Origin: Actinomycetota bacterium
GTDB lineage: Bacteria; Actinomycetota; CADDZG01; WHSQ01
Assembly (NCBI GenBank): GCA_013694625.1
Contig: JACDCD010000037.1
Location: 1 to 35,958, forward strand
Direction of reading: 5' to 3'
DNA length: 35,958 bases
In this document: positions 10,913 through 35,958 of the stretch, piece by piece
Layout: every line of letters begins with the position of its first letter
Numbering within the stretch: position 1 is the first letter of the stretch
Notes under the pieces: generated by a model
The model's input: only the letters and a program-made list of their open reading frames with translations
Database searches by the model: none
Told to the model about the DNA's origin: nothing
Program-made: the position numbers and the translations under genes

Positions 10913-10960
10913 GCATCCATCTTCCCGCCTTCGGGCCAAGGCGGTGGTCGCAGAAGGAGC

Positions 10961-11837: not shown

Positions 11838-11871
11838 TAGCCTTTCGAGAACCGTCTCCAGGCGTCGTTGT

Positions 11872-14800: not shown

Positions 14801-14997
14801 ATCTGGCTCGGCGAGTACGGCCGGGTTTCCAGCGCCCACGCGATGCGGGCAGCCATCACGGCGGTTTTGCCTGAGCCGGCCCCGGCGATGAGGTAGAGCG
14901 GCTCGAGGTCGTGGCTGATGGCGCTCCACTGCTCATCGGTGGGCTCGTAACCCTTGAGCGCAGCCCGGATAGCGTCGGACTTACGAGGATCGGTCAC
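11872..14997 (-). CDS. UvrD-like helicase with RecB-type nuclease, AdnB-like
   Basis: Superfamily-1A helicase-nuclease for double-strand-break end resection, probably one half of an AdnAB-type heterodimer. The frame is open to 15159, but GTG 14997 overlaps the upstream stop as GTGA, giving 1041 aa. Walker A AGAGSGKT is at about 38-45, the intact DEYQD Walker B box at about 254-258, the SENFRSG motif IV-like segment follows, then MTVHAAKGLEFE and the ERRLFYVALTRAKQRL motif VI. The C-terminal nuclease has RGRIDAVYETDNGG and EIVDFKTGR, with Asp976, Asp990 and Lys992 as the likely active site. It lacks the Cys cluster seen in its upstream partner. Against AdnAB, the intact motor motifs suggest the AdnB role, but the letter is not certain. 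Confidence 0.88.
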   Translation of the reverse strand: MTDPRKSDAIRAALKGYEPTDEQWSAISHDLEPLYLIAGAGSGKTAVMAARIAWALETRPYSPSQILGLTFTNKAAGELQERIHLALAALHDDSGEDVTVQTYNAFAASIVRDHGLLVGVEPESGLLSEAQQWQLVLSCLDDVPPFDVLEVRSSYVVGQTLNLASSIADHMVGVTDIEAAADHILSMQDVDDKIVQTALKRKELCRAVAAYIEGKNRTARIDFGDQITKAVEVLEGDDDVRDTYRERFPFVLLDEYQDTNVAQRRMLQALIKRGGAVTAVGDARQAIFAWRGATMYNLIGFPDHFPRGDGTAYGPVSLSENFRSGSRILEVANEIVASIDQSRRPGDPLRSQPGNGTGAVGVGLFADEQSEAAWIAEHCERMHDHPSAPTREPVRWKDIAILVRRKAAMDMLLQELEAREVPVEVVGLGGLLKTPEVTEVVAWLRALESKPGANRWVGRIVLGPRWRIHYRDLSLLARWATSQNWDFRVRLAGGDEGTAREMEPGDVGYSLADALNHLDGIEDLSAEAKQRLSSFSTRLGSIRRRSGAPLLELVQTVIREAGIVSALESSSSRAAPAARQNVSNFLDHVAQFAPVEGEATLRSFIAYLDAAEVAEETLEATQPAEQDSVKLMTVHAAKGLEFECVFVPSVASGTSGRTGEPIYSIFPNTKASNPLTSYSELPYEVREDSENMPRFAGKLPAFEKAVKERVIEDERRLFYVALTRAKQRLAVTAAWWYGRDAGAKGPSPFWKEVAALEAKGLVEVTRRDDQPEANPMFAAMEDRRQWPPEARSGPDDDLFPRGWGSAADGVISGELTIESLLAGLPGDESAGARGLIAEHEHHLGVIAAAMKPDAPIQPKIPDVLSATSYVRLRKGELSAWDLARPLPDRPTFARRIGTEVHKKIEERSRSVSFFAEETELDEPGEISTPGQIGNMLKRWEAEYGDRTIARLPSGEPMIELPFALKKNGRIIRGRIDAVYETDNGGLEIVDFKTGRRFEKNEEADQLELYAEALRANGLVTVPEGRITLTYAFIGAEQPLAT

Positions 14998-17900
14998 GCC
15001 GGCAGTTCCTTGCCCTCGGCCCACAAGGGGCACAGCGGCTTGAACTTGCACCACCGGCAGTCTGCCTCCGGATTCGGACGGAAGTCCTCGGCCAGTACCG
15101 CCTCCATGAGACCCGGAAGACGCTCGAGCGCCCTCTCGGCTTCGTCGGGGTTCTGGCAACGTTTCTGCACGTCACCCTTAGACAACGGTGCGTTGGGGTA
15201 GACGAGCTGCATCGACGCCGGGTCGCCCAGAGACGACAGCTCGGGATCGGAGCGGGCCGCCAAGTAGTAGACCGCGAGCTGGAGCGACTCACGAGCCTCG
15301 TCCCAGGACACCACCGACTTGGACGTCTTGTAATCCGAGATGACGAGATTCTTGCCGATCTTGTCGACGCGGTCGATTCGCCCAGTGATCCGGTGGCCTT
15401 CCAGCTCGACCTTGAATCCCTTCTCGGCAACAGCGGACTTGCCCGGCTTGAGGAAGCGGACGTAGCGATCGATCATCACCTCGCCCTCGCGCCGGAACTG
15501 GCGTGCAACGGCCTTGTTCGGGAAGACGTTCTCGTCGAAGAGCTCCTCATAGCGAATAAGGGCTGCCTGTTGGTTCGTGATCACATTCATCTCGCACTCC
15601 TCGAACACCTTATGCACCCACGACCCGAACGCCATGTTATGGCTCGACTCGGGGTCGAGGCCGAGGACGATGCTCAACAGGTACTGGAGGCCGCAGTTGT
15701 CGTACGTTGAGATGCGCGAGTACGAGGTCCGGAGCTTGTCGGGTGCCAGATCGTCGGCATCGGCCTGCTGGGCCCGAATGGGAACGCTCCCCTCGGTCCA
15801 TTCCCACCGCCACCACCATTCGCTCGGCTGAGCTGCGCGGCATGACGGATCGAGTTTGCCGATGGCGTCGATCGCGGCGAGCGCGGCCACCCGTTCGGGC
15901 CGCGGGCTGCGAGGGTCCGCCAGCACCCTCCGGTAGCCGGCCGCGGCCTCCCCGAAGGTAAGAGGCGGCCGATCCCCCTGCTCTTCGACGTCGGGCATCT
16001 GGCCGATCAGCTCTTCGATGAAGCGGCTCGGCTCGCCCCGACGAGACGGCCCGGGAGATGTGGTGACGATGCACCGCGTGGTTGCCCTCGTCGTCGCGAC
16101 GTAGAAGACGCGCCGATCCTCCATCTCGTTCTTGCGGGCGCGGGCCACGGGGTTTGTCTCGTCGAGAAAGTAGGGATCGAACAGGCCGCTTGCCCGCCGG
16201 CCCTTCGGGATCGCGCCCTGCACCACCCCGGCCACCGCGACGACGGACCACTCCTTGCCCTTCGCCCCGTGGAAGCTGACGACGTTGACGCCGCCTCCGG
16301 ACCGTTCAGGCGGAAGCCATGGGTCGGACCCGAAGTCGGCGCGTCCGATCGTTTGGAGGTAGTCGTCGAAGGTGCCGCCTCCTCCGCGACGCTCGACGAA
16401 ACGCCCGAGCGAGCGGCTGAACGCGACCAGCGCGTCCAGATCGCGGTTGGCGGGATCGTCGAGGCCGCGGCGAGCCCGTTCCAAAAGATCACGACACAGA
16501 CCTGACCTCCCCCACACCACCCAGAAAGCCTCGTCCGCGGGCGCGTCCCTTTTGGTCCGCAAGAGATCGCGTAGCTCGATGAGCTCAGCGATCTTCCCCC
16601 CCGCATCGGGGTCGCCGTCGAGCTCAGCACTGCTCTCGATCAACCTCGACAAGGTCCTGCCGGAAAGACGCGCCACACGCTCGAGCTCGCGCACGGTCGC
16701 GTCCTCGAGGTCTATCAGCGGAGATCGCAAGAGTTGGACAAGCTGTTCGCTGTCGTGTTCGGATGCAAAGGCGTACTGCGCTAGATCGGTGAAAGCGCGG
16801 ACAATCGGCTCACGCGCCAGCGGCCGGTCGGGAGCGCTTATGGAGAACGGGACTTCGAGCGCGTCGAGGGCTCGTTCGAGCGCCGGGAGCATCGCCCGCG
16901 GGGACGTGAGCAGGATCGCCATGTCCTCATAGGGCACACCCTCTGAGAGATGGGCCGTGCGCATGGTGCGAGCGATGGATTCGACCTCGACCGCCAGGCT
17001 GCCGTACCGATGGACTTCGAGAGAGCATTTGCCGGCGAAGTTGCGGGGACGACGATCGCCATGGCCGTTGCGCCCGATCAGCGCGGCCGCCTGCCGGCCG
17101 AGCCCGGCCCCCAGCCGGTAAGAGGTCGCAAGGGTTACCGTCTCGTGGTGGCCGAACTCCCTGCCGAAGTCGTTGGTCCATTCGGGCTCGCCACCCCGGA
17201 AGGTCTCGATCGCCGAGTCGGCGTCCCCCGCAAGGACGAGCGATCGTCCGGTGCCGCCACCGCCGCTGGGACTGAGGAAGTATAGGAACCGCCGTTGCAG
17301 GAGCGCCAACTCCTGGCCGTCGTCTACGAGGACGTGGACGAAGCGCCGGTGCAGCGATTCGCGGACGTGATCGAAGTTGGCGATGAGCTCGGTCGCTTCA
17401 CGCAGCAGCGTGGGGTAGTCGATGCGCGAGCGGGCCTTTAGCCGGTCGCGATGGGCCTTGAAGAAGCGGATGAGCTCGGTCCATTTTGGCCGGCTGGCTG
17501 CAAGGGCTTCCAGCTCGGCCTCGTCCAGCGCACGCTGTTCGGCGCGGATGCAGAAGTCCACGACTTCATCCACAAAGCCGCGATTGCGAAGAAGCGTCCG
17601 GTGGTGCGGCCAGTTGGCCTGCATCTCCCCAGCGAGGGCATCGCGGACATCCCCCCACTGCTCGGGGCTCGTCAGGAGCACGGGCGGCTCGTTATAGCCG
17701 AGATCCTCGTAGTGACGAGAGACGAGGTGGTTGGCGAAGCCGTGCCAAGTGTAGACCGGCACCTCGACCAGGGCCTCGAGGCCCTCATGGAACAACAACC
17801 GCCGGGTCAGCCTCTCTTGCAGAGCGATCTTCTGGGCCCGGTTCGGAACCAGGAAAAGGATCCGGTCGGGAGAGCAATCCCGCGAACATGCGAGGTGCAC

Positions 17901-18059
17901 GAAGCGTTCAGCGAGGGTGGTGGTCTTGCCGGTGCCCGGGCCTCCGTGGACCAGGAGGAGCGGACCGGCATCGTGGTCGACGACGCGGCGCTGATCCGTG
18001 TCTAGATCCAGGCCCCGGCCGGGTTCGGTTTGCTCTTGTTGTTCCTGCGTCATTCTCAT
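14994..18059 (-). CDS. UvrD-like helicase with Fe-S RecB-type nuclease, AdnA-like
   Basis: A 1021-aa helicase-nuclease, first gene of the resection pair. Walker A HGGPGTGKTTTL is near residues 39-50. The Walker B position reads HVLVDDGQEL, so DEYQD is replaced by DDGQE, a weakened motor box. FHGAKGKEW and DRRVFYVATTRA are the later helicase motifs. The C-terminal nuclease shows GRIDRVD (Asp896) and ISDYKTSK (Asp909, Lys911). Four Cys at 789, 1001, 1004 and 1010 (C then C-x2-C-x5-C) predict a 4Fe-4S staple as in AddB and Dna2. ATG 18059 is used; a second ATG at 18053 has a slightly better GGA box. It is coupled to the next gene by a 4-base overlap. The 117 bases upstream (18060-18176) hold no gene or clear promoter. 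Confidence 0.88.
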   Translation of the reverse strand: MRMTQEQQEQTEPGRGLDLDTDQRRVVDHDAGPLLLVHGGPGTGKTTTLAERFVHLACSRDCSPDRILFLVPNRAQKIALQERLTRRLLFHEGLEALVEVPVYTWHGFANHLVSRHYEDLGYNEPPVLLTSPEQWGDVRDALAGEMQANWPHHRTLLRNRGFVDEVVDFCIRAEQRALDEAELEALAASRPKWTELIRFFKAHRDRLKARSRIDYPTLLREATELIANFDHVRESLHRRFVHVLVDDGQELALLQRRFLYFLSPSGGGGTGRSLVLAGDADSAIETFRGGEPEWTNDFGREFGHHETVTLATSYRLGAGLGRQAAALIGRNGHGDRRPRNFAGKCSLEVHRYGSLAVEVESIARTMRTAHLSEGVPYEDMAILLTSPRAMLPALERALDALEVPFSISAPDRPLAREPIVRAFTDLAQYAFASEHDSEQLVQLLRSPLIDLEDATVRELERVARLSGRTLSRLIESSAELDGDPDAGGKIAELIELRDLLRTKRDAPADEAFWVVWGRSGLCRDLLERARRGLDDPANRDLDALVAFSRSLGRFVERRGGGGTFDDYLQTIGRADFGSDPWLPPERSGGGVNVVSFHGAKGKEWSVVAVAGVVQGAIPKGRRASGLFDPYFLDETNPVARARKNEMEDRRVFYVATTRATTRCIVTTSPGPSRRGEPSRFIEELIGQMPDVEEQGDRPPLTFGEAAAGYRRVLADPRSPRPERVAALAAIDAIGKLDPSCRAAQPSEWWWRWEWTEGSVPIRAQQADADDLAPDKLRTSYSRISTYDNCGLQYLLSIVLGLDPESSHNMAFGSWVHKVFEECEMNVITNQQAALIRYEELFDENVFPNKAVARQFRREGEVMIDRYVRFLKPGKSAVAEKGFKVELEGHRITGRIDRVDKIGKNLVISDYKTSKSVVSWDEARESLQLAVYYLAARSDPELSSLGDPASMQLVYPNAPLSKGDVQKRCQNPDEAERALERLPGLMEAVLAEDFRPNPEADCRWCKFKPLCPLWAEGKELPA

Positions 18060-24325: not shown

Positions 24326-25852
24326 TTGCGTATGAGGACACGCGTGATCCTGGGGGCGGCTCTTTCGCTGGTGGTCGCGCTGGTTGCCATCGGACTCAGA
24401 CTGGCCGTGCCCGCCGACGCTCCCCCGTCGGTGGACTTCGCCCAACCCAATGGGAAGATCAGGCCCCCCTTCGACCCGGCCCCCAGACCGTCCGCCGGCC
24501 CACAGAAGGCGACGACCCAATGCAGTGGCGTCATCGTGACACCGGATCAGGATCTCGGTGCGGTGATCTCCGCTCAGGTTCGGGGGGCCACGATCTGCCT
24601 GCAAGCGGCCGTCTACCGCATAACCGAACCGCTCACCCCCGGCGAGGGGCAGACTCTCATCGGGCAGGCCGGGACGGTGATCGACGGTTCCAAAGTGGTC
24701 ACCGACTGGGAATTCGACGGGGAAAACTGGGTAGCGAACGGTCAAAGCCAGGGGCCTACGGTCATCGAGTGGAGCGGGCCCGAACTGACCTTGCCCCAGG
24801 CGCTCTTCGGTGAGGACCTCTTCCTCGACGGAGAGCCGCTCACGAAAATTGGAGTCTTGGAGGGCGGCACGATCCATGGACGCGCTCCGGACGCCCTGGG
24901 TCCGGGCGAGTACTTCTTCGATTACGACTCCGACACAATCCTTCTGGGCTCGGATCCCGAGGGTCACTTGATCGAGACCTCGGTGGCTCCCGGAGGGATC
25001 GGGGGAACCGCCAGGCACGTGACCATTCGAGGACTTGTCGTCGAACAAACCGCAGGCTACGGGATAGATGGGAATCAGTACTGGTCGGTCAAGGACAACG
25101 AGAGCCGCCTCAACCACACCACAGGGATAGGCGTTTCGGGCTTCAGCCGGATAACACGCAACCTCGTGCATCAAAACGGCAAGTACGGTCTAACCGCAAG
25201 CGGCAGGGACGTTGTTGTGAAATACAACCGCGTTGAATCCAACAACCTCGCCCGATTTTCGACGGTCAACGGAGGCTTTTGGGACGCCGGCGGCTCAAAG
25301 TTCGTCTTTACCGAAGACATGACTCTTCGAGGGAACTATTTCGTCGACAATTTCGGCGACGGCATCTGGCTCGACCTCAACAACTCGAACGCCGATGTCT
25401 ACGGCAACCATTCGAGTGGAAACCAGAGGTTTGGAGTGTTTGTCGAAATTAGCTACCGCGTATCACTCCATGACAACTACATTGGAGCAAATGGCGACTA
25501 CGGAATCTTTGTCAACTCCTCATCACAAGTCGAAGTGGTCAACAATCTCGTAACCGGCGGCGTCGTGCTGGCGCAACAGAGCAGAGGCGAAGGGACACTA
25601 GGGCCCCACGTGGTGGAGGACAGCCTCGTGCGTGGCAATGTCGTTGATCTGTCAACCGGGCGTCAAGGCGTGTTGAGCGGCACGGACGTCGGCGACGGCG
25701 TCTTCACCGAGCAGAATAATAGCTTCGAGGGCAATATCTATCATCTGCCCTCACGTGATGCCGAGAACTTCTTGTGGTCCAACCAGTCCTTTACGGTTCA
25801 GGAATGGGTTGGAGCCGGTCTGGACACGAACGGAGAGTTCTATGCTCGATGA
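24326..25852 (+). CDS. secreted/anchored right-handed beta-helix protein
   Basis: A 508-aa surface protein. An N-terminal hydrophobic helix (VILGAALSLVVALVAIGLRL) acts as signal or anchor, followed by a Pro-rich spacer. From about residue 230 there are repeated parallel beta-helix coils rich in Asn and Gly: VTIRGLVVEQTAGYGIDGNQ, RITRNLVHQNGKYGLTASG, VVVKYNRVESNN, MTLRGNYFVDNFGDGIWLD, VSLHDNYIGANGDYGIFVNS. This is the fold of polysaccharide lyases, epimerases and tailspike-like proteins, so it probably binds or modifies polysaccharide. GGAG lies eight bases before the TTG at 24326; ATG 24332 is an alternative. The second half is only about 48-50% GC, unlike its surroundings, suggesting transfer. 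It lies three bases before a sulfotransferase. Confidence 0.85.
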   Translation: MRMRTRVILGAALSLVVALVAIGLRLAVPADAPPSVDFAQPNGKIRPPFDPAPRPSAGPQKATTQCSGVIVTPDQDLGAVISAQVRGATICLQAAVYRITEPLTPGEGQTLIGQAGTVIDGSKVVTDWEFDGENWVANGQSQGPTVIEWSGPELTLPQALFGEDLFLDGEPLTKIGVLEGGTIHGRAPDALGPGEYFFDYDSDTILLGSDPEGHLIETSVAPGGIGGTARHVTIRGLVVEQTAGYGIDGNQYWSVKDNESRLNHTTGIGVSGFSRITRNLVHQNGKYGLTASGRDVVVKYNRVESNNLARFSTVNGGFWDAGGSKFVFTEDMTLRGNYFVDNFGDGIWLDLNNSNADVYGNHSSGNQRFGVFVEISYRVSLHDNYIGANGDYGIFVNSSSQVEVVNNLVTGGVVLAQQSRGEGTLGPHVVEDSLVRGNVVDLSTGRQGVLSGTDVGDGVFTEQNNSFEGNIYHLPSRDAENFLWSNQSFTVQEWVGAGLDTNGEFYAR

Positions 25853-25864
25853 AAGGTGTGGCTC

Positions 25865-26758
25865 GTGGCCGGAATAGCCAAGACCGTCTCAGAGAACGAG
25901 TCTCTGCGCAGGTTCTTCATTCCCGCCTACCGTTTGCTCGCCAGGACGGTCGTCTTCTACCCCGGCCCTCGGGTGCTTGCCACCAGCGTTCCAAAAGCGG
26001 GCACGCACCTCGTCGCATCACTGCTGAAGAACTTCCCGCGCATGATGTTCTCCGGCAGGCACTCGTCACTTGCAGAATGGGCCTTGCCGGGAACCCGCTC
26101 CGACGTCGCAGGAAACGTTCCTGAACTGGATTGGGATCGCCTCGAACGCGCGCTGAAAGCAGTTAATCGCGGGCACTTCATGACTGCCCACTTTCCGGCC
26201 GTTCCCGAACTGAGGGAGATGTTGCAGCGTCTTGATTACAAGACGGTCTTTATGATCCGCGACCCACGCGACGTGGCCATCTCGAACGCCTTCTACATCA
26301 CCCGGTTGAAGCGCCACTTCCTCAACGAACGCTTCAACCAGGAGATGACCACGCTGGACGAGCGAATCATGGCTTGCATCACAGGGCTTCCGGTTACCGA
26401 GGCCAGTTCAGGACTGATTTCAATCGGACAACGCATCACCAACTATGTCGGGTGGAAGGACGACCCCGGTACGCACCTATGCCGCTTCGAAGACCTCGTA
26501 GGCGCAAACGGAGGGGGAAGCGACGAGGCGCAACGACGCGAGATCGAGTCGATTGCAACCCACATCAACAGGCCTCTGTCCCCCGGTGATATCCAGCGCA
26601 TCGCCAGAAAGACATGGTCACAGGACAGCTCGACCTTCCGGAAGGGCGTGATAGGCGACTGGAAAAACCACTTCAACGACGCTCACAAAGAAGCCTTCAA
26701 GAGGGTCGCCGGACAGGAGCTTGCCGACCTCGGTTTCGAGCGGAATCTCGACTGGTGA
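25865..26758 (+). CDS. PAPS-dependent sulfotransferase
   Basis: Transfers sulfate from 3'-phosphoadenylylsulfate to an acceptor, here probably a glycan or lipid; 297 aa. The 5'-phosphosulfate loop is SVPKAGTHL (41-49). The 3'-phosphate site is RDPRDVAIS (132-140). The C-terminal FRKGVIGDWKNHF is the PAPS-binding RKGxxGDWK motif of the Sulfotransfer_1 family. Two GTG starts exist, 25856 and 25865; GAAAGG lies eight bases before the second, which I use. No signal peptide, so cytosolic or membrane-associated. It follows the beta-helix gene closely and converges with the ligase gene, whose stop is only five bases away. GC is about 55% in parts, lower than neighbouring genes. Confidence 0.92.
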   Translation: MAGIAKTVSENESLRRFFIPAYRLLARTVVFYPGPRVLATSVPKAGTHLVASLLKNFPRMMFSGRHSSLAEWALPGTRSDVAGNVPELDWDRLERALKAVNRGHFMTAHFPAVPELREMLQRLDYKTVFMIRDPRDVAISNAFYITRLKRHFLNERFNQEMTTLDERIMACITGLPVTEASSGLISIGQRITNYVGWKDDPGTHLCRFEDLVGANGGGSDEAQRREIESIATHINRPLSPGDIQRIARKTWSQDSSTFRKGVIGDWKNHFNDAHKEAFKRVAGQELADLGFERNLDW

Positions 26759-26763
26759 CAATC

Positions 26764-28281
26764 CTACGACACGGGAGCGAACTCACGCCCTAGGGCCGAC
26801 GGGCTCCGTTCGCGTGCCAGGCTGGTTTGTTCTTCGGGCGTGAGCGGCGGGTCTTCAAGACGCAGCGAGAGGGCCAGGAAGACGAGGCAGGGATAGCCGA
26901 AGACTTCGAAGGTGTATCCCGTGGCACTCCGGACCACCAGCACCGACAGGAGCACAATCGGTACCACGTCGCCGTGGGCCGCCACCTTGAGGGAACGCCA
27001 CAGCATGAGCAACAGGCCAAGCGCAAGCAAGCTCGTCCCGACCACACCGGTGCCGACAATCGCTTCGATCCACGTCCCATGAATCGTTGCAGTTGAGGTC
27101 CGGCCGATCTCGGCCAAGACCTCGTAGCGCGTTGCGGTCAACAATCCCTTGCCTATGATCGGAGACTCCTCCCAGACGGGAAGGGCCGCCGACCACCAAC
27201 CGGCGCGCCCGTTCAGGCCGGTGACGATTTCCTCGGTCTGCCCCCGTAGCACGAAGGCCTGCACCTTGCTCGAATCATTCATGGCAAGTGAAAACCCACC
27301 CAGCATGGCAAGCGCCACCAACACAGCCGCCCACCGTCTCCTGCCGAACCAAAGAACGGCCATCAGCCCCACGGCAAAGGCCGCATATCCTGTGCGGTAC
27401 TGCGCCATGATCAGGGTGGCGAACGAGAACGCCGTGATGAACTTCAAGGTGAGGGGCCTCGGTCCACCGCCGTCCCCGCGGGGGTACAGCAGATTGGCAA
27501 GCGACCAAACCGTTATCAGCGCGGCCAGTACTCCGAGGTAGTCCGAGGCGAGGGTGGGGAAGACTCCGTTCAATCGAATGGGAAGAGGCGTGTAGCCACC
27601 CAGGCGAGGCGCCACCCGTTCGAGCGCAGCGCTGGGCAAGACAGCCGCTCCTGCCCACGCCGTGGCCATCAGGGAAACGGCAAACCAGTAGAGCGTAGCG
27701 AGGATGCGGGGAACCGCCTGCCTTCCGGCAACCCGGCACGCCCCGGCCATCACGACCACTGCCGCCGTGAGATCGAAGACCCTGAATCCGGTGAGCAGGA
27801 AATTGCGGGAGTAGAACGCTCCGATCAGGACCACGAAGATGTATGCCATGTAGAGACGGAAGGGACGGGAGGTCAGAGGGGCCCGGGCCTCGACCCCCGG
27901 GCGCGTGGAAGCGAGCGAGGAGACAAGCCCAAGAAACAACGCAGCCCCGAGACAGATCAAACGAAAAGCGCCCGCAGAGTCGACGGGGTTGTCCACCAGC
28001 GCCTGGGCGTCGCGCACCCGGAAGACCAGCTTGCTGAGCAGCAAGAGGAGCATGGGTATCTCGACTGAGAGGTAGCCGTATCGGGGAAGCCGTCCGATCC
28101 AGTCCGTCGGGAGCAGCGCTGCTGCAATCACAGCGCCGACGACGGCTAGGGCGAGGGCCTGTCCAACCCCTCCCAGAGCGACTCCGACTCCGATGAGAAC
28201 CGCCAGCACAGGCGCGGCCGCGGCAACCCAGGCCGCTGCGGTCCCGCCGGTCGACCTATTCGGAAGAGTCTGAGTGCTCAC
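26764..28281 (-). CDS. O-antigen ligase/Wzy-like polymerase
   Basis: Polytopic membrane protein of 505 aa with about a dozen hydrophobic segments, from VAAAAPVLAVLIGVGVALGG near the N-terminus to VVPIVLLSVLVV near the C-terminus. A large loop with RTGYAAF and NGRAGWWSAALPVWEESPII followed by GKG fits the WaaL/Wzy family, which ligates or polymerises lipid-linked glycan on the outer face of the membrane. GTG 28281 is used because GGGAG precedes it by five bases; it overlaps the end of the Wzz-like gene by 26 bases. The frame is open to 28359. Chain-length regulator plus polymerase in one operon is the classic pairing. Confidence 0.87.
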   Translation of the reverse strand: MSTQTLPNRSTGGTAAAWVAAAAPVLAVLIGVGVALGGVGQALALAVVGAVIAAALLPTDWIGRLPRYGYLSVEIPMLLLLLSKLVFRVRDAQALVDNPVDSAGAFRLICLGAALFLGLVSSLASTRPGVEARAPLTSRPFRLYMAYIFVVLIGAFYSRNFLLTGFRVFDLTAAVVVMAGACRVAGRQAVPRILATLYWFAVSLMATAWAGAAVLPSAALERVAPRLGGYTPLPIRLNGVFPTLASDYLGVLAALITVWSLANLLYPRGDGGGPRPLTLKFITAFSFATLIMAQYRTGYAAFAVGLMAVLWFGRRRWAAVLVALAMLGGFSLAMNDSSKVQAFVLRGQTEEIVTGLNGRAGWWSAALPVWEESPIIGKGLLTATRYEVLAEIGRTSTATIHGTWIEAIVGTGVVGTSLLALGLLLMLWRSLKVAAHGDVVPIVLLSVLVVRSATGYTFEVFGYPCLVFLALSLRLEDPPLTPEEQTSLARERSPSALGREFAPVS

Positions 28282-29923
28282 GCGTTCTCCCGCGAGAGTT
28301 CCCGGCGGAGATCCTCTGCGGTGCTGGACGGTGCCGCGATGCATAGTCGCCGTCACCACCTGCCGGGTGACTGCGCGCCTCGTGCAGATCGGAGCGGTTC
28401 AAGACTGCACCCAGGATGCGGGCGTCGACCTGGTCGAGTTGCTCTCTCGTCCGCTGGATGGCGCTGCGGGATGTCCGGGTGGAGTCCGCAACCACAAGCA
28501 CGGCGTCGGTGACCGGCGCCAACGTCATGGCATCCGCCGAGGGAAGGGTCGGCGCCACGTCGACTATGACGAAGTCGGCCGCCTCCCGGAGCTCGGCCAG
28601 CAATTTTGCCATTGCGTCGGAACCGAGGAGCTCGGTGGGGTTGTCGGGAGTCGGTCCGCTCGGCAGCACCCGGAGGTTGGCAATCCCGGGCTGGACAAGG
28701 GCAGTCGCAAGCTCGATCTGCCCCGAGAGCACGCTCGTGAGCCCTGTGTGGTTATCGATCCCGAAATATTCCATGAGGCGGGGCCTTCTCAGGTCGGCCG
28801 AGACCAGGATGACCCTCTTGCCCGCCTGTGCGAGCGCCACCCCCAGATTGGCCGTGGTACCCGATCGGCTCTCCTGAAGGTTGGGGCTGGTCACGAGCAG
28901 AACCTTCAGGTGGCGTTGAGACGCTGCGAAGAGCACGGCGGCTCGAAGCGTCCGGTATGCCTCCGCCGCCGGAGAATGGGGCTTCTCGGCGGTAACCAGG
29001 GAAACGCGGTTCTTTTCCCGGCGGGAGCCCACGAGAGGGACGACCGCAAGCGTTTTCATTCCGGCGTGATACTCGAGCTCGTCACGGTCCCGAAGGCGGT
29101 CGTCCAAACGATCCCTAAGAAGCGCCACCCCGGCGCCGAGGGCAAGTCCGAGGAGCAATCCGACAAGGAGGTTGCGCACCGGCTGAGGACTCGAGGGCGA
29201 CGTCGGCGTGGGCGCCTGCTGAACGATCTCGCCAACCGTGCTGGTCGTGAGCGGCTCCGACGAGGCGAACGGCCCGAGCTGCCCCCGTAGGAACAGGATC
29301 GTGCCGCTGATCGTGGTTCTCTGTGCGTCGAGTTGGGCTATCTCCGAGGCATCGCTGGCCCTTGCCAACTGATCAGCTAGCTTCCCCAGCTGCCTCTGAC
29401 TGCTCTCGAGCTGATCCTGCAGAGGCGCCACCGAGTCGGTGATTTGCTGCAGCCGGTATTGGAGGTAACCATCGGCAAACGCCTGGGCCAGCGTGGCTGC
29501 TTCGGCCGGCTCGGTCGAGGAATAACCCACGTCGAGGACCGAGGTGGTTCCCTGTGAGGTGACGTCGAGGCCATCCAGAAGGTCTTCGGGGTTGCCCGAG
29601 AAGCTGACCGCCTTGTTCGCCGCGACCAGGTTGGCCACCTCGGGGGAGGTGGCGAGGATGGACTCGGTCTCCATGTTGACGGCTTCCGCCGGCGAGGTCG
29701 CCGCTATGGGATCGGGACGCACGAGGATCAGGGCGTGGGACTCGTAGGTGCGTGGTTGTCTCAGGGTCAGCAGAAGAGCAGCCGCGACGGCGAGGATGGT
29801 GACCCCGATGATCGACCATTTACGGTCCCACAAGAATTTGAACTGCCTCTGGAGGTGGAAGGTGCCATTGCTACCTCCCATGGCCTCGCCTGTCGCCACT
29901 ATCGTCACTCCCTTGGTTTCCAT
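28256..29923 (-). CDS. Wzz/BY-kinase-like chain-length protein with degenerate P-loop
   Basis: A 555-aa polysaccharide co-polymerase. Membrane helix 1 is at about 38-54, a periplasmic-type Wzz domain with a coiled-coil region follows, and helix 2 is at about 249-269. The cytoplasmic CpsD/CapB-like domain comes next. That domain keeps EAYRTLRAAVLFA and a Walker B-like strand (FVIVDVAPTLPSADAMTL, Asp455). The Walker A loop, normally GEGKS/T-T, reads NLQESRSGTTANL (348-360) with no Lys, and the Walker A' DADLRRP reads SADLRRP. The tail has a single Tyr rather than a Tyr cluster. It is therefore likely a pseudokinase retained for structure. Starts are uncertain: ATG 29923, or GTG 29899 with GGGAG eight bases upstream. 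The 233 bases upstream hold no other gene. Confidence 0.88.
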   Translation of the reverse strand: METKGVTIVATGEAMGGSNGTFHLQRQFKFLWDRKWSIIGVTILAVAAALLLTLRQPRTYESHALILVRPDPIAATSPAEAVNMETESILATSPEVANLVAANKAVSFSGNPEDLLDGLDVTSQGTTSVLDVGYSSTEPAEAATLAQAFADGYLQYRLQQITDSVAPLQDQLESSQRQLGKLADQLARASDASEIAQLDAQRTTISGTILFLRGQLGPFASSEPLTTSTVGEIVQQAPTPTSPSSPQPVRNLLVGLLLGLALGAGVALLRDRLDDRLRDRDELEYHAGMKTLAVVPLVGSRREKNRVSLVTAEKPHSPAAEAYRTLRAAVLFAASQRHLKVLLVTSPNLQESRSGTTANLGVALAQAGKRVILVSADLRRPRLMEYFGIDNHTGLTSVLSGQIELATALVQPGIANLRVLPSGPTPDNPTELLGSDAMAKLLAELREAADFVIVDVAPTLPSADAMTLAPVTDAVLVVADSTRTSRSAIQRTREQLDQVDARILGAVLNRSDLHEARSHPAGGDGDYASRHRPAPQRISAGNSRGRTREHSDSSE

Positions 29924-30156
29924 CGTTGCTCGGACCGGCCTCCGCACCTACAGCTGAGATAAACGCCGCAGATGGGAGAAAGTTGCCGACTGGGCGCGCC
30001 CCCACCCGGATGAGGCGGGATGCACGCTTGGCCAACCTTACACCGGGCCCGCTCTTACTGGAAATAAAAGGGTATCGCCCATTGGGATTCCGGGATGCAG
30101 AGCTCGCCTGGCCCCGACGATCGGTGCCGAAATCCGGCCTGTGGCACAGTGATCCT

Positions 30157-30978
30157 GTGACGATCCTGTGCTACCACACCGTTGAACGCGACTGGCGGTC
30201 GACCCTGGCGGTGACACCCGAGGCCTTCTCCGAGCACTGCGCATGGCTGGCGCGCCGGCGCGTCGTGCCTCTCGAGGAGGCCATCGAGCGGATCGACCGG
30301 CTGGGCCGCTTGCCGCGCGGTGTGACCGCGCTGACCTTCGACGACGGTTTCGCAGGCCTCTATGAGCACGCCTGGCCCGTGCTCTCCCATTTCGGCCTTC
30401 CGGCCACGGTTTTCCTGGTTGCCCAAACCCTGAGCCCGGAAGGCCGCGCCGTGGATTGGGCGCCGACCTCGCCCCCCGGCGCAGGGACTCTGCATCTCGA
30501 CCAGGTGCTCGAGATGCAGGCCGCAGGCATCGCGTTCGGATCCCACAGCTACGCCCATCTCGATCTCATCAACTTGGACGCCGACGAGTGCGAACGAGAC
30601 CTCCGGGAGAGTCGCAGGCTTCTCGAGGACCTCCTGAAAAGAAGCGTGCCCTATCTCGCCTATCCCCGCGGCCTCCACAACGAAACCGTCCATCATGCGG
30701 CGGAGGCGGCCGGATTCTCCCATGCATTCAGCCTGCCCGAGGGTCCGGAGGAAGTAACCAGCTACGCGATACCCCGTGCCGTCATCATTCCGGGGAACGG
30801 CGTCACCACCTTGCGTTTCAAGACCTCACGGCTGTATCTACCCTTCCGCCGCACCCCACTGTGGCCGGCGTTGCGAGCTGTGGCCCGCAAGGTCGGGCTG
30901 GGCCTCCACCTTGACCAGAGCCACACGGGACGGACGCTTCCCCGCACCAGTAGACCTCGCAACCGAATGCGTCGGTGA
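30157..30978 (+). CDS. polysaccharide deacetylase (NodB/CE4)
   Basis: Metal-dependent deacetylase acting on N-acetylated glycans; 273 aa from GTG 30157. Motif 1 TFDDGF has Asp62 and Asp63, motif 2 GSHSYAH has metal ligands His130 and His134, and motif 3 appears as YLAYPRG near 167-172. The N-terminus ILCYHTVERDW is typical of the small CE4 enzymes that begin just before the first strand. The frame is open to 29926, and GTG 30124 is an alternative start; no clear ribosome site is seen for either. No signal peptide in the short form, so it may act on intracellular lipid-linked sugars or be secreted otherwise. Divergent from the Wzz-like gene and convergent with the GT4 gene. Confidence 0.88.
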   Translation: MTILCYHTVERDWRSTLAVTPEAFSEHCAWLARRRVVPLEEAIERIDRLGRLPRGVTALTFDDGFAGLYEHAWPVLSHFGLPATVFLVAQTLSPEGRAVDWAPTSPPGAGTLHLDQVLEMQAAGIAFGSHSYAHLDLINLDADECERDLRESRRLLEDLLKRSVPYLAYPRGLHNETVHHAAEAAGFSHAFSLPEGPEEVTSYAIPRAVIIPGNGVTTLRFKTSRLYLPFRRTPLWPALRAVARKVGLGLHLDQSHTGRTLPRTSRPRNRMRR

Positions 30979-30998
30979 TTGTGCAGCGGCGCACGAGG

Positions 30999-32141
30999 TC
31001 ATGACATAACCCGCTTGTATGCCGCCTCCAGGAGCGTTAGTGACGATTCCGGGCTGTTGCGTTTCAACCAGAGTTTGTAACCTCCGTCGCCGAGCCGGAT
31101 GCACTCCTCGTCGTTCCCCAGGCGCCCTATCGAGTCCGCCCAGTCGGCGGTGTCGGCCGGGTTCGCCAGGAGCCCCGTGACCCCGGCCTCCACGGCTTCG
31201 GTAAGGGCGCCTATCCGGCTGGCGATCACCGGCACCCCCGCCCCGTAAGCCTCGGCGATGGTCCTCGGTGCGCCCTCGTAGCAGACCGACGGCACCAGGA
31301 CGGCTCGGGCGCCGCTCAGCAGGGTCGTCGCCCGTTCGGGCGGGACCGCGCCGAGGAACTCGACCCCCGGCCCCGCTTTCGCTTTGAGAAGGCTCATCTC
31401 TGGACCGTCTCCGGCGATCACGAGCCGCCCGAGATCCGGGCGCCAGGTGTCGACGACCACCTCCGCGCCCTTTTCAGACGACAACCGACCGAGGAACAGG
31501 AAATATTCGCCGGGTCCCTCGCGCCTGGGCGACGGCCAGGTGAAATTGGGCTTGACCTCCAGACGCTCCCGGGGCCAGCCCGCCTCGACGTGCTTGTCCG
31601 ACACGAAGCGGCTGACGCACAAGAACAACGCCACGAGCCCGAAACTTTTCAACCCCCTATGGAGCGAAAGGGAGACCGCGTAGGCTCCACTTCCCGGCAA
31701 CGAGTCGCGAAAACAACGGTGGACGATCCCACGCCACGGGAGGTGTCCGAGACAGTCCTCGCATACCTTTCCGTCTCTCAGGAAGGTGGCCGGCAGACAG
31801 AGAAGGCGGTAGTTGTGGAGCGTCATCACCGTGGGCACCCCGGCGGACGACGTGGCGCGCAGGACGGCGGGCGACAATGCAGGAAACAGGTTGTGGAAGT
31901 GAACAACGTCGGGTTTGTGCTCACGCATGGCGCGCCGAAGCTGTGCGACGCTCTCGGTCGCCCACACCGCTTGCTGAGCCGTCCTTGCCAGTCCAAAGCT
32001 CGAGGAAGTCGCCGCTTCAGGATCCCAGAGCAGGACGTCGTGGCCCCCGCTCCTCAACAGCTCGACCTCGTCGTCGACGACCCGGTTCTCACCGGAGACA
32101 GGACCGGACTGATAGCGAGAGTGGCCGACCAGAACACGCAT
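30999..32141 (-). CDS. glycosyltransferase family 4 (GT-B)
   Basis: A 380-aa retaining glycosyltransferase for glycan assembly on the cytoplasmic face. The N-domain has MRVLVGHSRYQSGPVSGENR and PDVVHFHNLFP. A Cys-containing segment (VCEDCLGHLPWRGIVHRC) is typical of one GT4 subgroup. The C-domain has YFLFLGRLSSEKG, RLVIAGDGPE and the E-x7-E motif in CYEGAPRTIAEAYGAGVPVI. ATG 32141 shares its A with the stop of the upstream sulfotransferase gene (TAATG), so translation is probably coupled. No ribosome site is seen. The frame is open upstream to 32222 but inside the sulfotransferase gene. Sugar donor and acceptor unknown. Confidence 0.93.
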   Translation of the reverse strand: MRVLVGHSRYQSGPVSGENRVVDDEVELLRSGGHDVLLWDPEAATSSSFGLARTAQQAVWATESVAQLRRAMREHKPDVVHFHNLFPALSPAVLRATSSAGVPTVMTLHNYRLLCLPATFLRDGKVCEDCLGHLPWRGIVHRCFRDSLPGSGAYAVSLSLHRGLKSFGLVALFLCVSRFVSDKHVEAGWPRERLEVKPNFTWPSPRREGPGEYFLFLGRLSSEKGAEVVVDTWRPDLGRLVIAGDGPEMSLLKAKAGPGVEFLGAVPPERATTLLSGARAVLVPSVCYEGAPRTIAEAYGAGVPVIASRIGALTEAVEAGVTGLLANPADTADWADSIGRLGNDEECIRLGDGGYKLWLKRNSPESSLTLLEAAYKRVMS

Positions 32142-32986
32142 TAGTAACCGAGGAGGTCGAGTGATGTTCGGGTACGCTCCAGGAGGAGAGCAGCCTGCGC
32201 AGGGCTGATTTGATCCTGCCATCCCTGTGTAGCTCCTTCGTTCACAAACCTGATGTCACGAGAGCGCGCCCTCGTAAACGTGTCCTTGGGGGCAACGTCC
32301 TCTTTTGCCCGCATCCTTTCGACGGCGTTGTTGCGCACGACAGCTTCGATCGTCGACGCGTCTAGAGAAACGCCAAGGAAGTTCGTCACCTGGGCGAGAG
32401 TTTCCTCCGGCTTACTGCGGAGCTCTTCGAATTTGACGAGATGCAAATGGCCGCGACGTGCGGGCACACTCGTCATCCAGTACCGAACGTGGTCCGCCCA
32501 TGACCCGAATGGATTGGTGTTGCCTTCGAGAAAGGCAAAGAAGAACTCATCAAAGCTTTGATCGCTCCCTTGCCGTTTTGCGAGCTTGTACTCGGAAATG
32601 ACAACACTGCGCGGATCGCGGGCCAAATAGACGACCTTCCGGTCGCCACGGGAGTAAGGATCGTGTGTACCTACAACGCGTCCGCCGCCGGGAAGAACGC
32701 GACGAGCATTGCGCCCCGTGTAGGTGTTGACGACATCGAAGTCTGCGCTTTGTCCCGATAGGCTCTCGTATAACAAAAAGCGCATCCACGTCGAGCCGGA
32801 TCTCGGATAGGTCGCGAGCAATGCGTCGTACGGGGTCAGGTAGCGCGCTCTCACACGCAGAACGGGACGTTGGTGACCGGCCCACTGCAGCAGGCGTCGA
32901 ATTCTTGGGTTTGTCATGTAGGCGTCACGGACGGCTTGCATGTATCCTGCAGCTCCCTCGTTCGATTGCGGCACTCGTCCTGTCAT
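32141..32986 (-). CDS. PAPS-dependent sulfotransferase (second)
   Basis: A 281-aa sulfotransferase distinct from the one at 25865. The 5'-phosphosulfate loop is YPRSGSTWM (60-68), the 3'-phosphate site is RDPRSVVIS (123-131), and the C-terminus has FVNEGATQGWQDQIS in place of RKGxxGDWK. It has no signal peptide. ATG 32986 is used without a clear ribosome site; ATG 32941 with AGGA upstream is an alternative. It is followed by the GT4 gene with a one-base stop/start overlap, which suggests that the same glycan is built and sulfated by this pair. It shares a 64-base divergent promoter region with the ATP-grasp gene. Confidence 0.92.
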   Translation of the reverse strand: MTGRVPQSNEGAAGYMQAVRDAYMTNPRIRRLLQWAGHQRPVLRVRARYLTPYDALLATYPRSGSTWMRFLLYESLSGQSADFDVVNTYTGRNARRVLPGGGRVVGTHDPYSRGDRKVVYLARDPRSVVISEYKLAKRQGSDQSFDEFFFAFLEGNTNPFGSWADHVRYWMTSVPARRGHLHLVKFEELRSKPEETLAQVTNFLGVSLDASTIEAVVRNNAVERMRAKEDVAPKDTFTRARSRDIRFVNEGATQGWQDQISPAQAALLLERTRTSLDLLGY

Positions 32987-33018
32987 AGGCAGGAGTGACC
33001 GCTCGACCCAAGATGTTA

Positions 33019-33039
33019 GCGGTGGTCACCGCCTATAGT
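33019..33039 (+). promoter_or_regulatory. divergent intergenic palindrome and -10 box
   Basis: In the 64 bases between the divergent sulfotransferase and ATP-grasp genes there is an inverted repeat GCGGTG-GT-CACCGC (33019-33032) immediately followed by TATAGT (33034-33039), eleven bases before the ATP-grasp ATG. TATAGT has one mismatch to the -10 consensus. No good -35 box is seen. A repressor bound to the palindrome would cover the spacer of this promoter. Confidence 0.4.
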
Positions 33040-33050
33040 TTGACCTCGGG

Positions 33051-34286
33051 ATGAATGGTTCGGACCGCGATGTACTCCCCAACAAGGAAAATGGTGTGCC
33101 CCCAAACCAACCTCTAGCGTGCGTCATCGGTGACATGGATCTTCTGCGCCCCCTGGGGCTCGCCAATATACCGTGCGCAGCCGTCGCACCGCCCGGCGCG
33201 CCGCCTCGATATTCTCGCTTCACCCAGGCGGTCGTGGAATGGGCGGATCCGTCTGATGACGCCGGCGCCCTGGCGGACAGGCTGGTCGATTTTGCCCAGG
33301 GGCAGAGACAGAAACCTGTGCTGTTCTACGAGGGAGACTGGGACCTCCTGCTGATATCCCGGAACCGCGACCGTCTGTCGGGCTTCTTTGACTTCGTCAT
33401 CCCCGATGGCTCACTGGTCGAGGATCTGGTCGACAAGGCCCGCTTCCGGACGCTTGCGCACACCCTCGGGCTCCCCGTCCCGTCGAGCGTGCAGGTCGAC
33501 ACCGCCACCGCCCTTCCGGAGGATGTCGATCTTGACTATCCACTCATCCTCAAACCCTTGACGCGCCGCACCGCCACATGGATGCCCATATTCACAGAGC
33601 TGAACCAGAGTGAGGCCAAGGCGATCGAGGTTCGGTCCCGGCGGGAGATGGCCGCGCTGTGGCCCCGCCTGGCGTCGTCGGGCGCCGAGGTGCTGGCCCA
33701 GGAACTCATCGAAGGTCCCGAGACGAGCATCGAGAGCTACCACGTGTACGTAGATCGGGGGGGATCCACCGTCGCCTCGTTCACGGGAAAGAAGATCCGC
33801 ACCTATCCCAAGGGCTACGGCCACAGCACCGCGCTCGAGATCACCGCCAGCGCCGAGGTGGCCTCTCTGGGCGCCGAGCTCATTCAGAAACTCGACCTCC
33901 GGGGTGTGGCCAAGCTCGACTTCAAGCGTTCCCCCGGCGGCGCCCTCTATCTCCTCGAAGTCAATCCCCGCTTCTCGCTGTGGCACCACCCGGGGGCCAG
34001 GGCCGGAGTCAATCTTCCGGCGCTCGTCTACGACGACATGGTGGCAGGGGCCCGGCGGAGCACAGGGCCGGCGCAGCCCGGCGTGAAATGGTGCCGCTTG
34101 CTCAACGACATCAAAGCCGCAAGGAGCGAGGGCATCTCTTTTTTGCGGTGGCTGCCCTGGGCCATGACCTGTGATGCGCGAGCGACGTTGGCATGGGACG
34201 ACCCGTTGCCCTTCCTCAGAGGGGTCTTGTGGCCTCATGCAGCCGCCGGTCTGCGGGCACTTCGGCGGCGCACAGCCCGGATCTGA
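33051..34286 (+). CDS. ATP-grasp carboxylate-amine ligase
   Basis: A 411-aa ATP-grasp enzyme that activates a carboxylate as acyl phosphate and joins it to an amine or similar group. The N-terminal pre-ATP-grasp fold (PLACVIGDMDLLRPLGLANI) is followed by DLVDKARFRTLAHTLGLPVP. The nucleotide-binding strand is YPLILKP (163-169). QELIEGPETSIESYHVYVD (217-235) and the Mg-binding LLEVNPRFSLWHH (301-313) follow. It resembles the carbamoyl-phosphate-synthase-like ATP-grasp proteins often found in surface polysaccharide loci, where they may attach amino acids or similar groups to sugars; that role is inferred. ATG 33051 starts with a short leader from TATAGT. Followed by a phosphoesterase eight bases later. 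Confidence 0.88.
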   Translation: MNGSDRDVLPNKENGVPPNQPLACVIGDMDLLRPLGLANIPCAAVAPPGAPPRYSRFTQAVVEWADPSDDAGALADRLVDFAQGQRQKPVLFYEGDWDLLLISRNRDRLSGFFDFVIPDGSLVEDLVDKARFRTLAHTLGLPVPSSVQVDTATALPEDVDLDYPLILKPLTRRTATWMPIFTELNQSEAKAIEVRSRREMAALWPRLASSGAEVLAQELIEGPETSIESYHVYVDRGGSTVASFTGKKIRTYPKGYGHSTALEITASAEVASLGAELIQKLDLRGVAKLDFKRSPGGALYLLEVNPRFSLWHHPGARAGVNLPALVYDDMVAGARRSTGPAQPGVKWCRLLNDIKAARSEGISFLRWLPWAMTCDARATLAWDDPLPFLRGVLWPHAAAGLRALRRRTARI

Positions 34287-34293
34287 GGTTCCC

Positions 34294-35091
34294 TTGCGCT
34301 ATGGCATCATCTCAGACATCCACGGAAACCTGCCGGCGCTCCGGGTGGCGCTTGCCGAGCTGCGCCACCAGGGTATTGATGAGCTTCTGTGCACCGGAGA
34401 CCTGATCGGCTACGGCCCCTGGCCAAACGAATGCGTGGCCGAGATCGCCGAGGCGGGCGCTGTCTGTGTGGCGGGCAATCATGACCTGATCGTTGTCGAC
34501 AGACTGCCGAATGCGAGATTATCGAACCACGCGAGGTTCATATTGGAGTGGACGCGCACCGTTCTGGACCCCGGCGCAGCGGCCTATCTCGGGACGCTCC
34601 CCTTGCAGGCGAACGTCGAACCGGAGCTCAGGCTTGCGCACGGCTCCCTCGAAGACCCCGAGCGCTACATCTTTCGGGACGAAGATGCGGCGCAGCAGCT
34701 GGCGCTCCTCGGAGAGTTGGTTCCGGCGGCGCAGACCCTGCTCCTGGGACATACGCACAAGGCCATGGCCTACGGGATGCGAACGCGGGAGCTGAGGATC
34801 ATTCCCCGAGCGCCCATGTCTCTTGCAGGAGATAGGCACTTGTTGAACCCGGGAAGCGTCGGACAGTCGCGCGAGCGCAGACCCTGGGCCCGCATGGCTC
34901 TGCTTGATCTCGAGGATCGGCAGATGACCTTCTTTGCGCTCGACTACGATTTGGATCTGTGCCGTAAGGAGCTCATCCGCCATGGACTTCCACCGGGAGC
35001 CTGTCATGCGCCCCCGTCGCCGGTATCGATGGGGCGACGCCTCATAAGCCGCCTGGGACGGCGAGCCTTGCGCTCGGTCCGCGGGTCGTAG
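34294..35091 (+). CDS. metallophosphoesterase, YfcE/MJ0936-like
   Basis: A 265-aa calcineurin-like phosphoesterase with every metal motif intact: D8-x-H10 in ISDIHGN, GD (35-36) in CTGDLIGYGPWP, GNHD (61-64) and GHTH in LLLGHTHKAM. A C-terminal extension of about 50 residues (DYDLDLCRKELIRHGLPPG and onward) ends in a basic tail. The TTG at 34294 is the likely start: GAGG lies five bases upstream, and it begins exactly at the family N-terminus. The frame is open to 34171 inside the ATP-grasp gene. The close spacing implies one transcript with the ligase. Substrate unknown. Confidence 0.9.
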   Translation: MRYGIISDIHGNLPALRVALAELRHQGIDELLCTGDLIGYGPWPNECVAEIAEAGAVCVAGNHDLIVVDRLPNARLSNHARFILEWTRTVLDPGAAAYLGTLPLQANVEPELRLAHGSLEDPERYIFRDEDAAQQLALLGELVPAAQTLLLGHTHKAMAYGMRTRELRIIPRAPMSLAGDRHLLNPGSVGQSRERRPWARMALLDLEDRQMTFFALDYDLDLCRKELIRHGLPPGACHAPPSPVSMGRRLISRLGRRALRSVRGS

Positions 35092-35170
35092 GTCGACTAG
35101 CCGGACCGCGAGGTCTGCCTCGGATGCTCGCGCATGGATACCCTGCTCGTCCGGGCTGGAGGGCCGGCGG

Positions 35171-35958
35171 CTAGAGGCGTCCGGAGCTCGGGGGGACCGG
35201 CGCCTCCTCTTCGACCTCTTCCTCGACCGGCACCACGACGTTGTCCTGGCTATCCCCGTCCACACCACCGCCGGTCAGGCGCCCCGTCAAGGCGCCGATG
35301 GCGGCCCGATCCTCTGGGCCCAAACCCAGAAGCAGAAGCAGACCAAGGTAAACCAACCCGACAACGACCACCGCAACCGCCGCCGCGACGACGCCCGTTC
35401 CGACTCCGGCAAGCGCAATCACGGCCCTTGCTGCGCCAACGGAAGCAACCCCCGCAGCGATGGGCTTCCAGTAATCGAGACGATATGGATGCAGTCTTGA
35501 CGCCGACCAGACCTGCCAGAGGGGCAAAAGGTTGTTAAGCGCCGTCCCGACAAGGTGGGCGACGGATGCGCCGAGAACTCCGTAACGCGGTATGAGCCAG
35601 AAACCCAGGGCTATCTCAGCCGCAACGACGGCCACATAGTCGAAAAACGCAAGGCGGGAGCGACCGGTGAGGATGAGCGTGGTGGTGACCGGACCCGTCC
35701 CGAAGATGAACAGGACGGAGAAGGCGAGAACGACGAGAGCCGTGCTTGCGTCCCGGAAATCAGAGCCGAAGATCGAAAGGATCTCCTTGGGGAACATGAC
35801 CTGCAAACAGAACAAAGGGAACGCCAAGGTGAAGCTCCACTTACCCATGCTCTTGAATAGCGTGGTCAACTCCGCCCGGCGGTTCTGCAGGTAGAGGTTG
35901 CTGGCCATCGGGCTGTAAACCTGATTGAGAGCGACGTTGATCGCGCTGGGCGCCAGGG
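35171..35958 (-). CDS. Wzx/MATE-type polysaccharide flippase (5' end outside window)
   Basis: C-terminal part of a polytopic membrane transporter that moves lipid-linked glycan across the membrane; the gene enters from the right edge. About six or seven membrane segments are visible, including FTLAFPLFCLQVMFPKEIL, ALVVLAFSVLFIFGTGPV, FDYVAVVAAEIALGFWLIP and VVAAAVAVVVVGLVYLGLLL. RYGVLGASVAHLVGTALNNL is characteristic of the Wzx/polysaccharide biosynthesis family. A Met at 35908 is in frame, but coding continues upstream (ALNQVYSPMASNLYLQNRR), so the start lies beyond 35958. The soluble tail is acidic (VPVEEEVEEEAPVP). It converges on the phosphoesterase gene; the 79 bases between show no clear terminator. 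Confidence 0.88.
   Translation of the reverse strand, partial: LAPSAINVALNQVYSPMASNLYLQNRRAELTTLFKSMGKWSFTLAFPLFCLQVMFPKEILSIFGSDFRDASTALVVLAFSVLFIFGTGPVTTTLILTGRSRLAFFDYVAVVAAEIALGFWLIPRYGVLGASVAHLVGTALNNLLPLWQVWSASRLHPYRLDYWKPIAAGVASVGAARAVIALAGVGTGVVAAAVAVVVVGLVYLGLLLLLGLGPEDRAAIGALTGRLTGGGVDGDSQDNVVVPVEEEVEEEAPVPPSSGRL

Follow-up and report, generated by a model that had tools for sequence, protein, structure and literature searches.

Organization of the locus

The window considered here, a stretch of 35,958 nucleotides that makes up the entire contig C115 (JACDCD010000037.1) of an Actinomycetota bacterium, ends in a cluster of polysaccharide genes that includes sulfotransferases. The host genome (2.72 Mb, 98% complete) belongs to an order that consists of one family of 16 genomes in the genome collection, and its nearest named relative is the unclassified Actinomycetota metagenome-assembled genome (MAG) MGR_bin333, whose sulfotransferase ST1 is 91% identical. 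Ten genes at positions 24326–35958 had been named in an earlier note made from the sequence, and each is borne out by Pfam and NCBIfam profile searches. In contig order, they encode a beta-helix protein (+), ST1 (+), a Wzy-type polymerase (−), a Wzz protein fused to an ATPase of the bacterial tyrosine kinase (BY-kinase) type (−), a polysaccharide deacetylase (+), a GT4 glycosyltransferase (−), the sulfotransferase ST2 (−), an ATP-grasp ligase (+), a metallophosphoesterase (+) and a Wzx flippase (−).

The flippase gene (35171–35958, − strand) runs off the right end of C115; the earlier naming as a flippase holds, for a MOP-family gene of which only the C-terminal half lies inside the window. 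A flippase search of the host's own genome located the N-terminal piece (PF01943/PF13440, Polysacc_synt, E-value 1.3e-17) at the end of contig C153. Over their final 127 bases, the window and C153 are exact reverse complements of each other, and joining them yields a single unbroken flippase frame of 538 amino acids. Extension to the right thereby supplied the missing core genes: beyond the flippase, C153 encodes a polyisoprenyl-phosphate hexose-1-phosphate transferase (PHPT; PF02397, 8.7e-62), an epimerase, a WecG-type GT26 glycosyltransferase (PF03808, 3.6e-54), a UDP-glucose dehydrogenase and the sulfotransferase ST3 (PF13469, 1.5e-11), followed by a gene for a RecB-like PDDEXK nuclease. 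The joined locus comprises 15 genes over about 19 kb, of which about 7.2 kb lie past the window on C153. Both of the different sulfotransferases first recognized are confirmed, and with ST3 their number rises to three (two PF00685, one PF13469), while Wzx, Wzy, Wzz and PHPT are each encoded just once in the whole stretch. Since the genes lie on both strands, they must form several transcription units rather than one operon. Given the strong domain E-values and the recurrence of the same set in other genomes, chance is not an issue.

Judged by its predicted gene functions, the joined locus appears to be a full Wzx/Wzy polysaccharide locus equipped with three sulfotransferases, and it probably directs the synthesis of an exopolysaccharide or capsule with a sulfated product, so that the sulfated exopolysaccharide proposed in the earlier note is supported. 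This reading rests on the gene content, the intact PAPS-site motifs of ST1, the capacity of the genome to make 3'-phosphoadenosine 5'-phosphosulfate (PAPS), the conserved linkage of the genes and the adjacency of ST1 to flippase genes.

The polymerase gene (26764–28359, −) matches PF04932 (Wzy_C, 7.2e-13) and has relatives at 40–42% identity in loci L025 and L027. As O-antigen ligases and polymerases both carry PF04932, its product is regarded as a putative polymerase. The Wzz protein (28256–29947, −) matches PF02706 and scores 160.9 bits with TIGR01007, whose cut-off is 108. The protein lacks the hallmarks of a BY-kinase: the Walker A motif of its ATPase half is degraded, with TSPNLQESRSGTTANL as compared with, for example, TSVSFGEGKSTTAANL in relatives, QESRSGT replaces the GEGKST motif (GEGKS(T)) that relatives in L179 and L180 retain, and the final 45 residues hold one Tyr and no Tyr-rich tail. 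Due to the degraded Walker A motif, the protein probably acts as a co-polymerase that controls chain length and has no kinase activity.

Sulfotransferases and PAPS supply

ST1 (25856–26758, +; 300 amino acids; PF00685, Sulfotransfer_1, 7.5e-15) carries the full SULT signature, that is the PKxGTH loop (SVPKAGTH), RDPRD (RDPRDV) and FRKGxxGDW, all of which are kept in six orthologs. Its profile aligns with solved PAPS sulfotransferases at the 5' loop, the 3'-phosphate motif RxxxxxxxS and RKGxxGDW. ST2 (32141–32986, −; 281 amino acids; PF00685, 1.9e-30) aligns near full length with SULT structures (E-value 6e-27), and ST3 has a conserved GxxRSGSTILD-type loop and LVRDPRAV. No export signal was recognized on any of the three proteins.

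The genome encodes a single ATP sulfurylase of the Sat type (contig C148, PF01747, 1e-98) and a single adenosine 5'-phosphosulfate (APS) kinase, CysC (contig C211, PF01583, 9e-65). PAPS can therefore be made, though both genes lie outside the locus. PAPS synthesis is thus present as foreseen, in the form of Sat and CysC and not of CysNCD. A cysNCD-type operon was rejected because the ATP sulfurylase is Sat-type and because the lone gene with a PAPS_reduct domain is CysH-like and adjoins what appear, from their sequences, to be sulfite reductase and siroheme genes.

Conservation of the sulfotransferase neighborhood

Within the family, ST1 was found in six of the 16 genomes and ST2 in five, all of them among the ST1 carriers. 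In G004 and in G006, both genes share a single contig with Wzx and Wzy; the G004 contig adds several PF13469 sulfotransferases, and the G006 contig two of these, a beta-helix gene and two sugar epimerases. In G005, ST1 and ST2 lie on a contig with a Wzz/BY-kinase gene. The expected co-occurrence of both sulfotransferases with flippase and polymerase is thus seen on single contigs in two genera of the family. As gene order varies among the family members, it is the gene set that is conserved and not one operon.

Beyond the family, relatives of ST1 occur in 17 of 396 sampled Actinomycetota genomes. Nine such neighborhoods were read and compared with nine other stretches of these genomes as controls: a core polysaccharide gene (Wzx, Wzy, Wzz or PHPT) lies near ST1 in 8/9 loci (1/9 controls) and another sulfotransferase family in 7/9 (0/9 controls), in a comparison with few controls of which two are short contigs. 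Locus L181 (G225) is a near-complete relative with ST1, two ST3, GT4, Wzy, Wzz, GT26 and epimerase genes. Furthermore, ST1 has a flippase gene no more than 1.3 kb away in 16 loci, other phyla included; among these are the Anaerolineae locus L048, which holds Wzx, ST1, an ST2-type gene and a GT2 gene, and the exopolysaccharide locus of a Pseudosulfitobacter plasmid. Linkage to polysaccharide genes, one of the points on which the earlier note had made its proposal depend, is hence found again in several families of Actinomycetota and in several phyla.

In a Verrucomicrobia MAG (L059, 2596–17485), an ST1 homolog adjoins Wzy, and the epimerase (63%) and GT26 (58%) proteins strongly resemble the copies in the present locus; a transfer of the epimerase-GT26 unit is possible.

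The ATP-grasp/metallophosphoesterase pair

Between ST2 and the flippase lie genes for an ATP-grasp ligase (33051–34286, +; 411 amino acids; PF15632, 5.8e-8; PRK12767-like) and a metallophosphoesterase (34294–35091, +, with an assumed TTG start at 34294; PF12850 and PF00149, 3e-16), the latter resembling the PDB entry 3rqz (E-value 1.7e-25). The two genes are adjacent in at least nine loci, namely the window (33051–35091), G007, G009, G364, G220, G325, G084, Azospirillum ramasamyi and A. brasilense (loci L147, L144, L201, L202, L215, L216, L219 and L220 besides the window). Outside the genus, the ATP-grasp proteins are 40–55% identical (52–55% in G009, G004, G364, G220 and Azospirillum). In A. 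ramasamyi, the genes of the pair overlap by 4 bases amid flippase, GT4, aminotransferase and nucleotide-sugar dehydrogenase genes. Exceptions are G307, which has no phosphoesterase gene at this place, G141, with only fragments on the opposite side, a second ATP-grasp copy in G007 without a phosphoesterase, and G004, where the contig ends.

Wherever polysaccharide genes were readable nearby, the pair is located in their midst, with or without sulfotransferases; few such genes were recognized around it in G364 and G325. Occurring in both settings, the pair is not tied to sulfation, and a role of the ATP-grasp protein as a partner of sulfation only was discarded, as the loci that hold the pair in G009 and Azospirillum showed no sulfotransferase. 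Formation of an amide or ester on the glycan by the predicted ATP-grasp ligase is plausible. An AlphaFold model of this protein, built from a single sequence, was unusable (mean predicted local distance difference test score, pLDDT, 35), and a literature search combining ATP-grasp, metallophosphoesterase and polysaccharide biosynthesis found no paper.

In both species of the genus, ST2 and the ATP-grasp gene are divergent neighbors. A second locus of the host genome (L010, contig C185 of G000, 8630–14963) has paralogs of ST2 and of the ATP-grasp gene side by side, together with a PF13469 sulfotransferase, ComA, ComB and a lactate-racemase-like protein. ComA and ComB are phosphosulfolactate synthase and phosphatase, and this second locus is possibly linked to sulfolactate. 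The pair might tentatively be viewed as a two-gene module for an undescribed decoration of polysaccharide repeat units. In this lineage the module would be coupled to sulfation, given that ST2 and ATP-grasp genes or their paralogs adjoin at two distinct sites in the genome. The suggestion is more likely to fail than to hold.

Other genes of the locus and the window

The beta-helix protein (24326–25852, +; 508 amino acids; PF13229, 7.4e-19) has an N-terminal hydrophobic segment and is probably exported. An ortholog with 82% identity adjoins ST1 in the sister species G007, and beta-helix genes are also present in the ST1 loci L027, L179 and L186, the latter two being the only ones among the nine outside the family. 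A search of PDB by phmmer gave no match, and a three-row profile reached the C5-epimerase AlgE4 at an E-value of 0.028, which is too weak for naming a function. An AlphaFold model from two input sequences was unusable (mean pLDDT 33). The protein could be an epimerase- or lyase-like enzyme rather than the surface protein first suggested.

The deacetylase (29926–30978, +; PF01522, 8.4e-23) resembles the IcaB/PgaB polysaccharide (N-)deacetylases, with TIGR03938 and TIGR03933 below their cut-offs, and has no obvious signal peptide. The GT4 glycosyltransferase (30999–32222, −; PF13692, 7.6e-26) has relatives at 42–53% identity in the other ST1 loci L047, L181 and L186. Elsewhere in the window, positions 5962–18059 form a DNA-repair neighborhood, with gene names assigned from sequence only, that comprises an Fpg/Nei-like glycosylase, a large Lhr-type helicase and two UvrD/AddA-like helicases with PDDEXK-type ends.

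Proposed pathway and alternative explanations

The enzymatic steps, their substrates and order, and the presence of sulfate on the final polymer can be inferred as follows. PHPT would start the repeat unit on undecaprenyl phosphate, and GT4 and GT26 would extend it together with transferases encoded elsewhere. Because UDP-glucose dehydrogenase is encoded in the locus, a uronic acid is expected to enter the unit. ST1, ST2 and ST3 would then move sulfate from PAPS onto the lipid-linked unit in the cytosol. PAPS is cytosolic, and as ST1 to ST3 show no export signal, sulfation before flipping is the most economical model, which the adjacency of ST1 to flippase genes fits. Going by their families, the deacetylase may release an amino group, and the ATP-grasp/phosphoesterase pair may attach an amide- or ester-linked group. 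Wzx would flip the unit, Wzy would polymerize it and the Wzz protein would set the chain length, while the beta-helix protein may trim, epimerize or bind the exported polymer.

Several points weigh against a sulfated polymer. Apart from PHPT, the locus holds just two glycosyltransferases; it is known from its genes alone, in a lineage without a cultured member; the control set is small; and G013 (L028) carries ST1 with no polysaccharide genes recognized nearby. Furthermore, FVNxGxxxGW or a near-variant replaces RKGxxGDW in ST2 and its orthologs, and the activity of ST2 is less certain since this 3'-phosphate motif is missing. Lastly, ST1-family genes of Bacilli (27–32% identity) lie near Wzx/Wzy core genes in 0/18 loci.

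The replaced motif, together with the Arg for Lys exchange in the 5' loop of ST2, favors the possibility that a Wzx/Wzy polysaccharide is made but that some of the sulfotransferase-fold proteins, ST2 especially, are inactive or use another donor, leaving less sulfate than three genes suggest. Such a reduced role is rather doubtful: the replacement is itself conserved, and in an alignment of six sequences ST2 retains the 5' loop, a His and RDPRSVVIS. In fact, many carbohydrate sulfotransferases lack RKGxxGDW.

The sulfotransferases could also act on a glycolipid, a small metabolite or a natural product, as do the mycobacterial Stf enzymes and the enzymes of rhizobial Nod-factor sulfation, their place in a polysaccharide locus being incidental. 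ST2 best matches cytosolic small-molecule SULTs and also the glycopeptide sulfotransferases Teg and StaL, several of the eight Sulfotransfer_1 matches in the genome are distant from the locus, and the Bacilli homologs lie outside Wzx/Wzy loci. However, the SULT likeness reflects the fold only, and both the flippase adjacency and the linkage to Wzy, Wzz and PHPT recur across families and phyla, which makes an incidental placement improbable. A polysaccharide role is not extended to the Bacilli homologs, given their distance from Wzx/Wzy genes, and the family is not always an exopolysaccharide enzyme. Three Bacilli loci (L071, L073 and L076) hold three to four ST1-family genes within about 20 kb, distant from Wzx/Wzy genes.

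It is just as improbable that two loci adjoin here, one for a sulfated polymer (beta-helix, ST1, Wzy, Wzz, GT4, ST2) and one without sulfate (ATP-grasp, phosphoesterase, Wzx, PHPT, GT26): the pair does occur where no sulfotransferase is seen (G009, Azospirillum) and the genes lie on both strands, but the whole stretch has a single Wzx, Wzy, Wzz and PHPT, ST3 stands at the far end, and ST2 and ATP-grasp genes are divergent neighbors in both species of the genus, with paralogs of both adjoining on C185.

Comparison with known systems

Sulfated bacterial exopolysaccharides have long been described as nearly a cyanobacterial specialty. In the accessible part of its description, the synechan locus xss of Synechocystis PCC 6803 is a characterized Wzx/Wzy locus with a sulfate-containing product, and it shares with the present locus two sulfotransferases of distinct subfamilies, a polymerase, a flippase, a co-polymerase and glycosyltransferases (PMC8205485). 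It differs by eight glycosyltransferases and the XssQRS regulatory system, and that part of the source names neither an ATP-grasp/phosphoesterase pair nor a beta-helix protein among its genes (PMC8205485). A tblastn search of ST1 to ST3 against a plasmid collection, in which the presence of pSYSM is unchecked, reported no cyanobacterial plasmid match, so close kinship with the synechan sulfotransferases is unlikely.

Among Actinomycetota, the literature yielded one direct precedent, the locus wps-1 of Actinoplanes missouriensis, whose product is predicted, not shown, to be sulfated (PMC13390465, 2026). Sulfated glycans are indeed uncommon among actinobacteria, as the earlier note held, though no longer without precedent. 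wps-1 likewise encodes two sulfotransferases from distinct families alongside Wzx, Wzy and Wzz, and a gene for an APS-forming enzyme adjoins it; unlike the present locus, it includes GH26, methyltransferase and kinase-like genes and is tied to sporangium formation (PMC13390465). Its sulfotransferase families go by other names in that account (PMC13390465). Next to wps-1 and synechan, the present locus has three sulfotransferases and the additional ATP-grasp/phosphoesterase pair.

Capsule loci with sulfotransferases and sulfated structures are also reported, in the accessible parts of the accounts, for Vibrio sp. KMM 8419 and Cobetia marina KMM 1449, which unlike the present host are marine Gammaproteobacteria (PMC11641403, PMC11766843). 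On plasmid P1 of Pseudosulfitobacter pseudonitzschiae (NZ_CP087043.1), the flippase gene of an exopolysaccharide locus with autokinase, glycosyltransferase and metallophosphoesterase genes is immediately followed by a member of the ST1 family; this protein, annotated as hypothetical, is only about 30% identical to ST1, and the locus differs by a polysaccharide export protein. Such loci are already known from cyanobacteria and marine bacteria, with an actinobacterial one recently predicted, and the present locus is a further example in a distant, uncultured lineage. The newer element may be the ATP-grasp/phosphoesterase pair, a conserved unit of polysaccharide loci in Actinomycetota as well as in Azospirillum.

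Biological significance

A locus with three sulfotransferases, its relatives in several uncultured Actinomycetota families and the flippase-linked ST1 genes of other phyla suggest that the capacity for sulfated polysaccharides is a wider trait. An ST1 gene adjoining a flippase gene may serve as a marker for finding producers of such polymers, and the ATP-grasp/phosphoesterase pair would offer a concrete, testable case in polysaccharide decoration.

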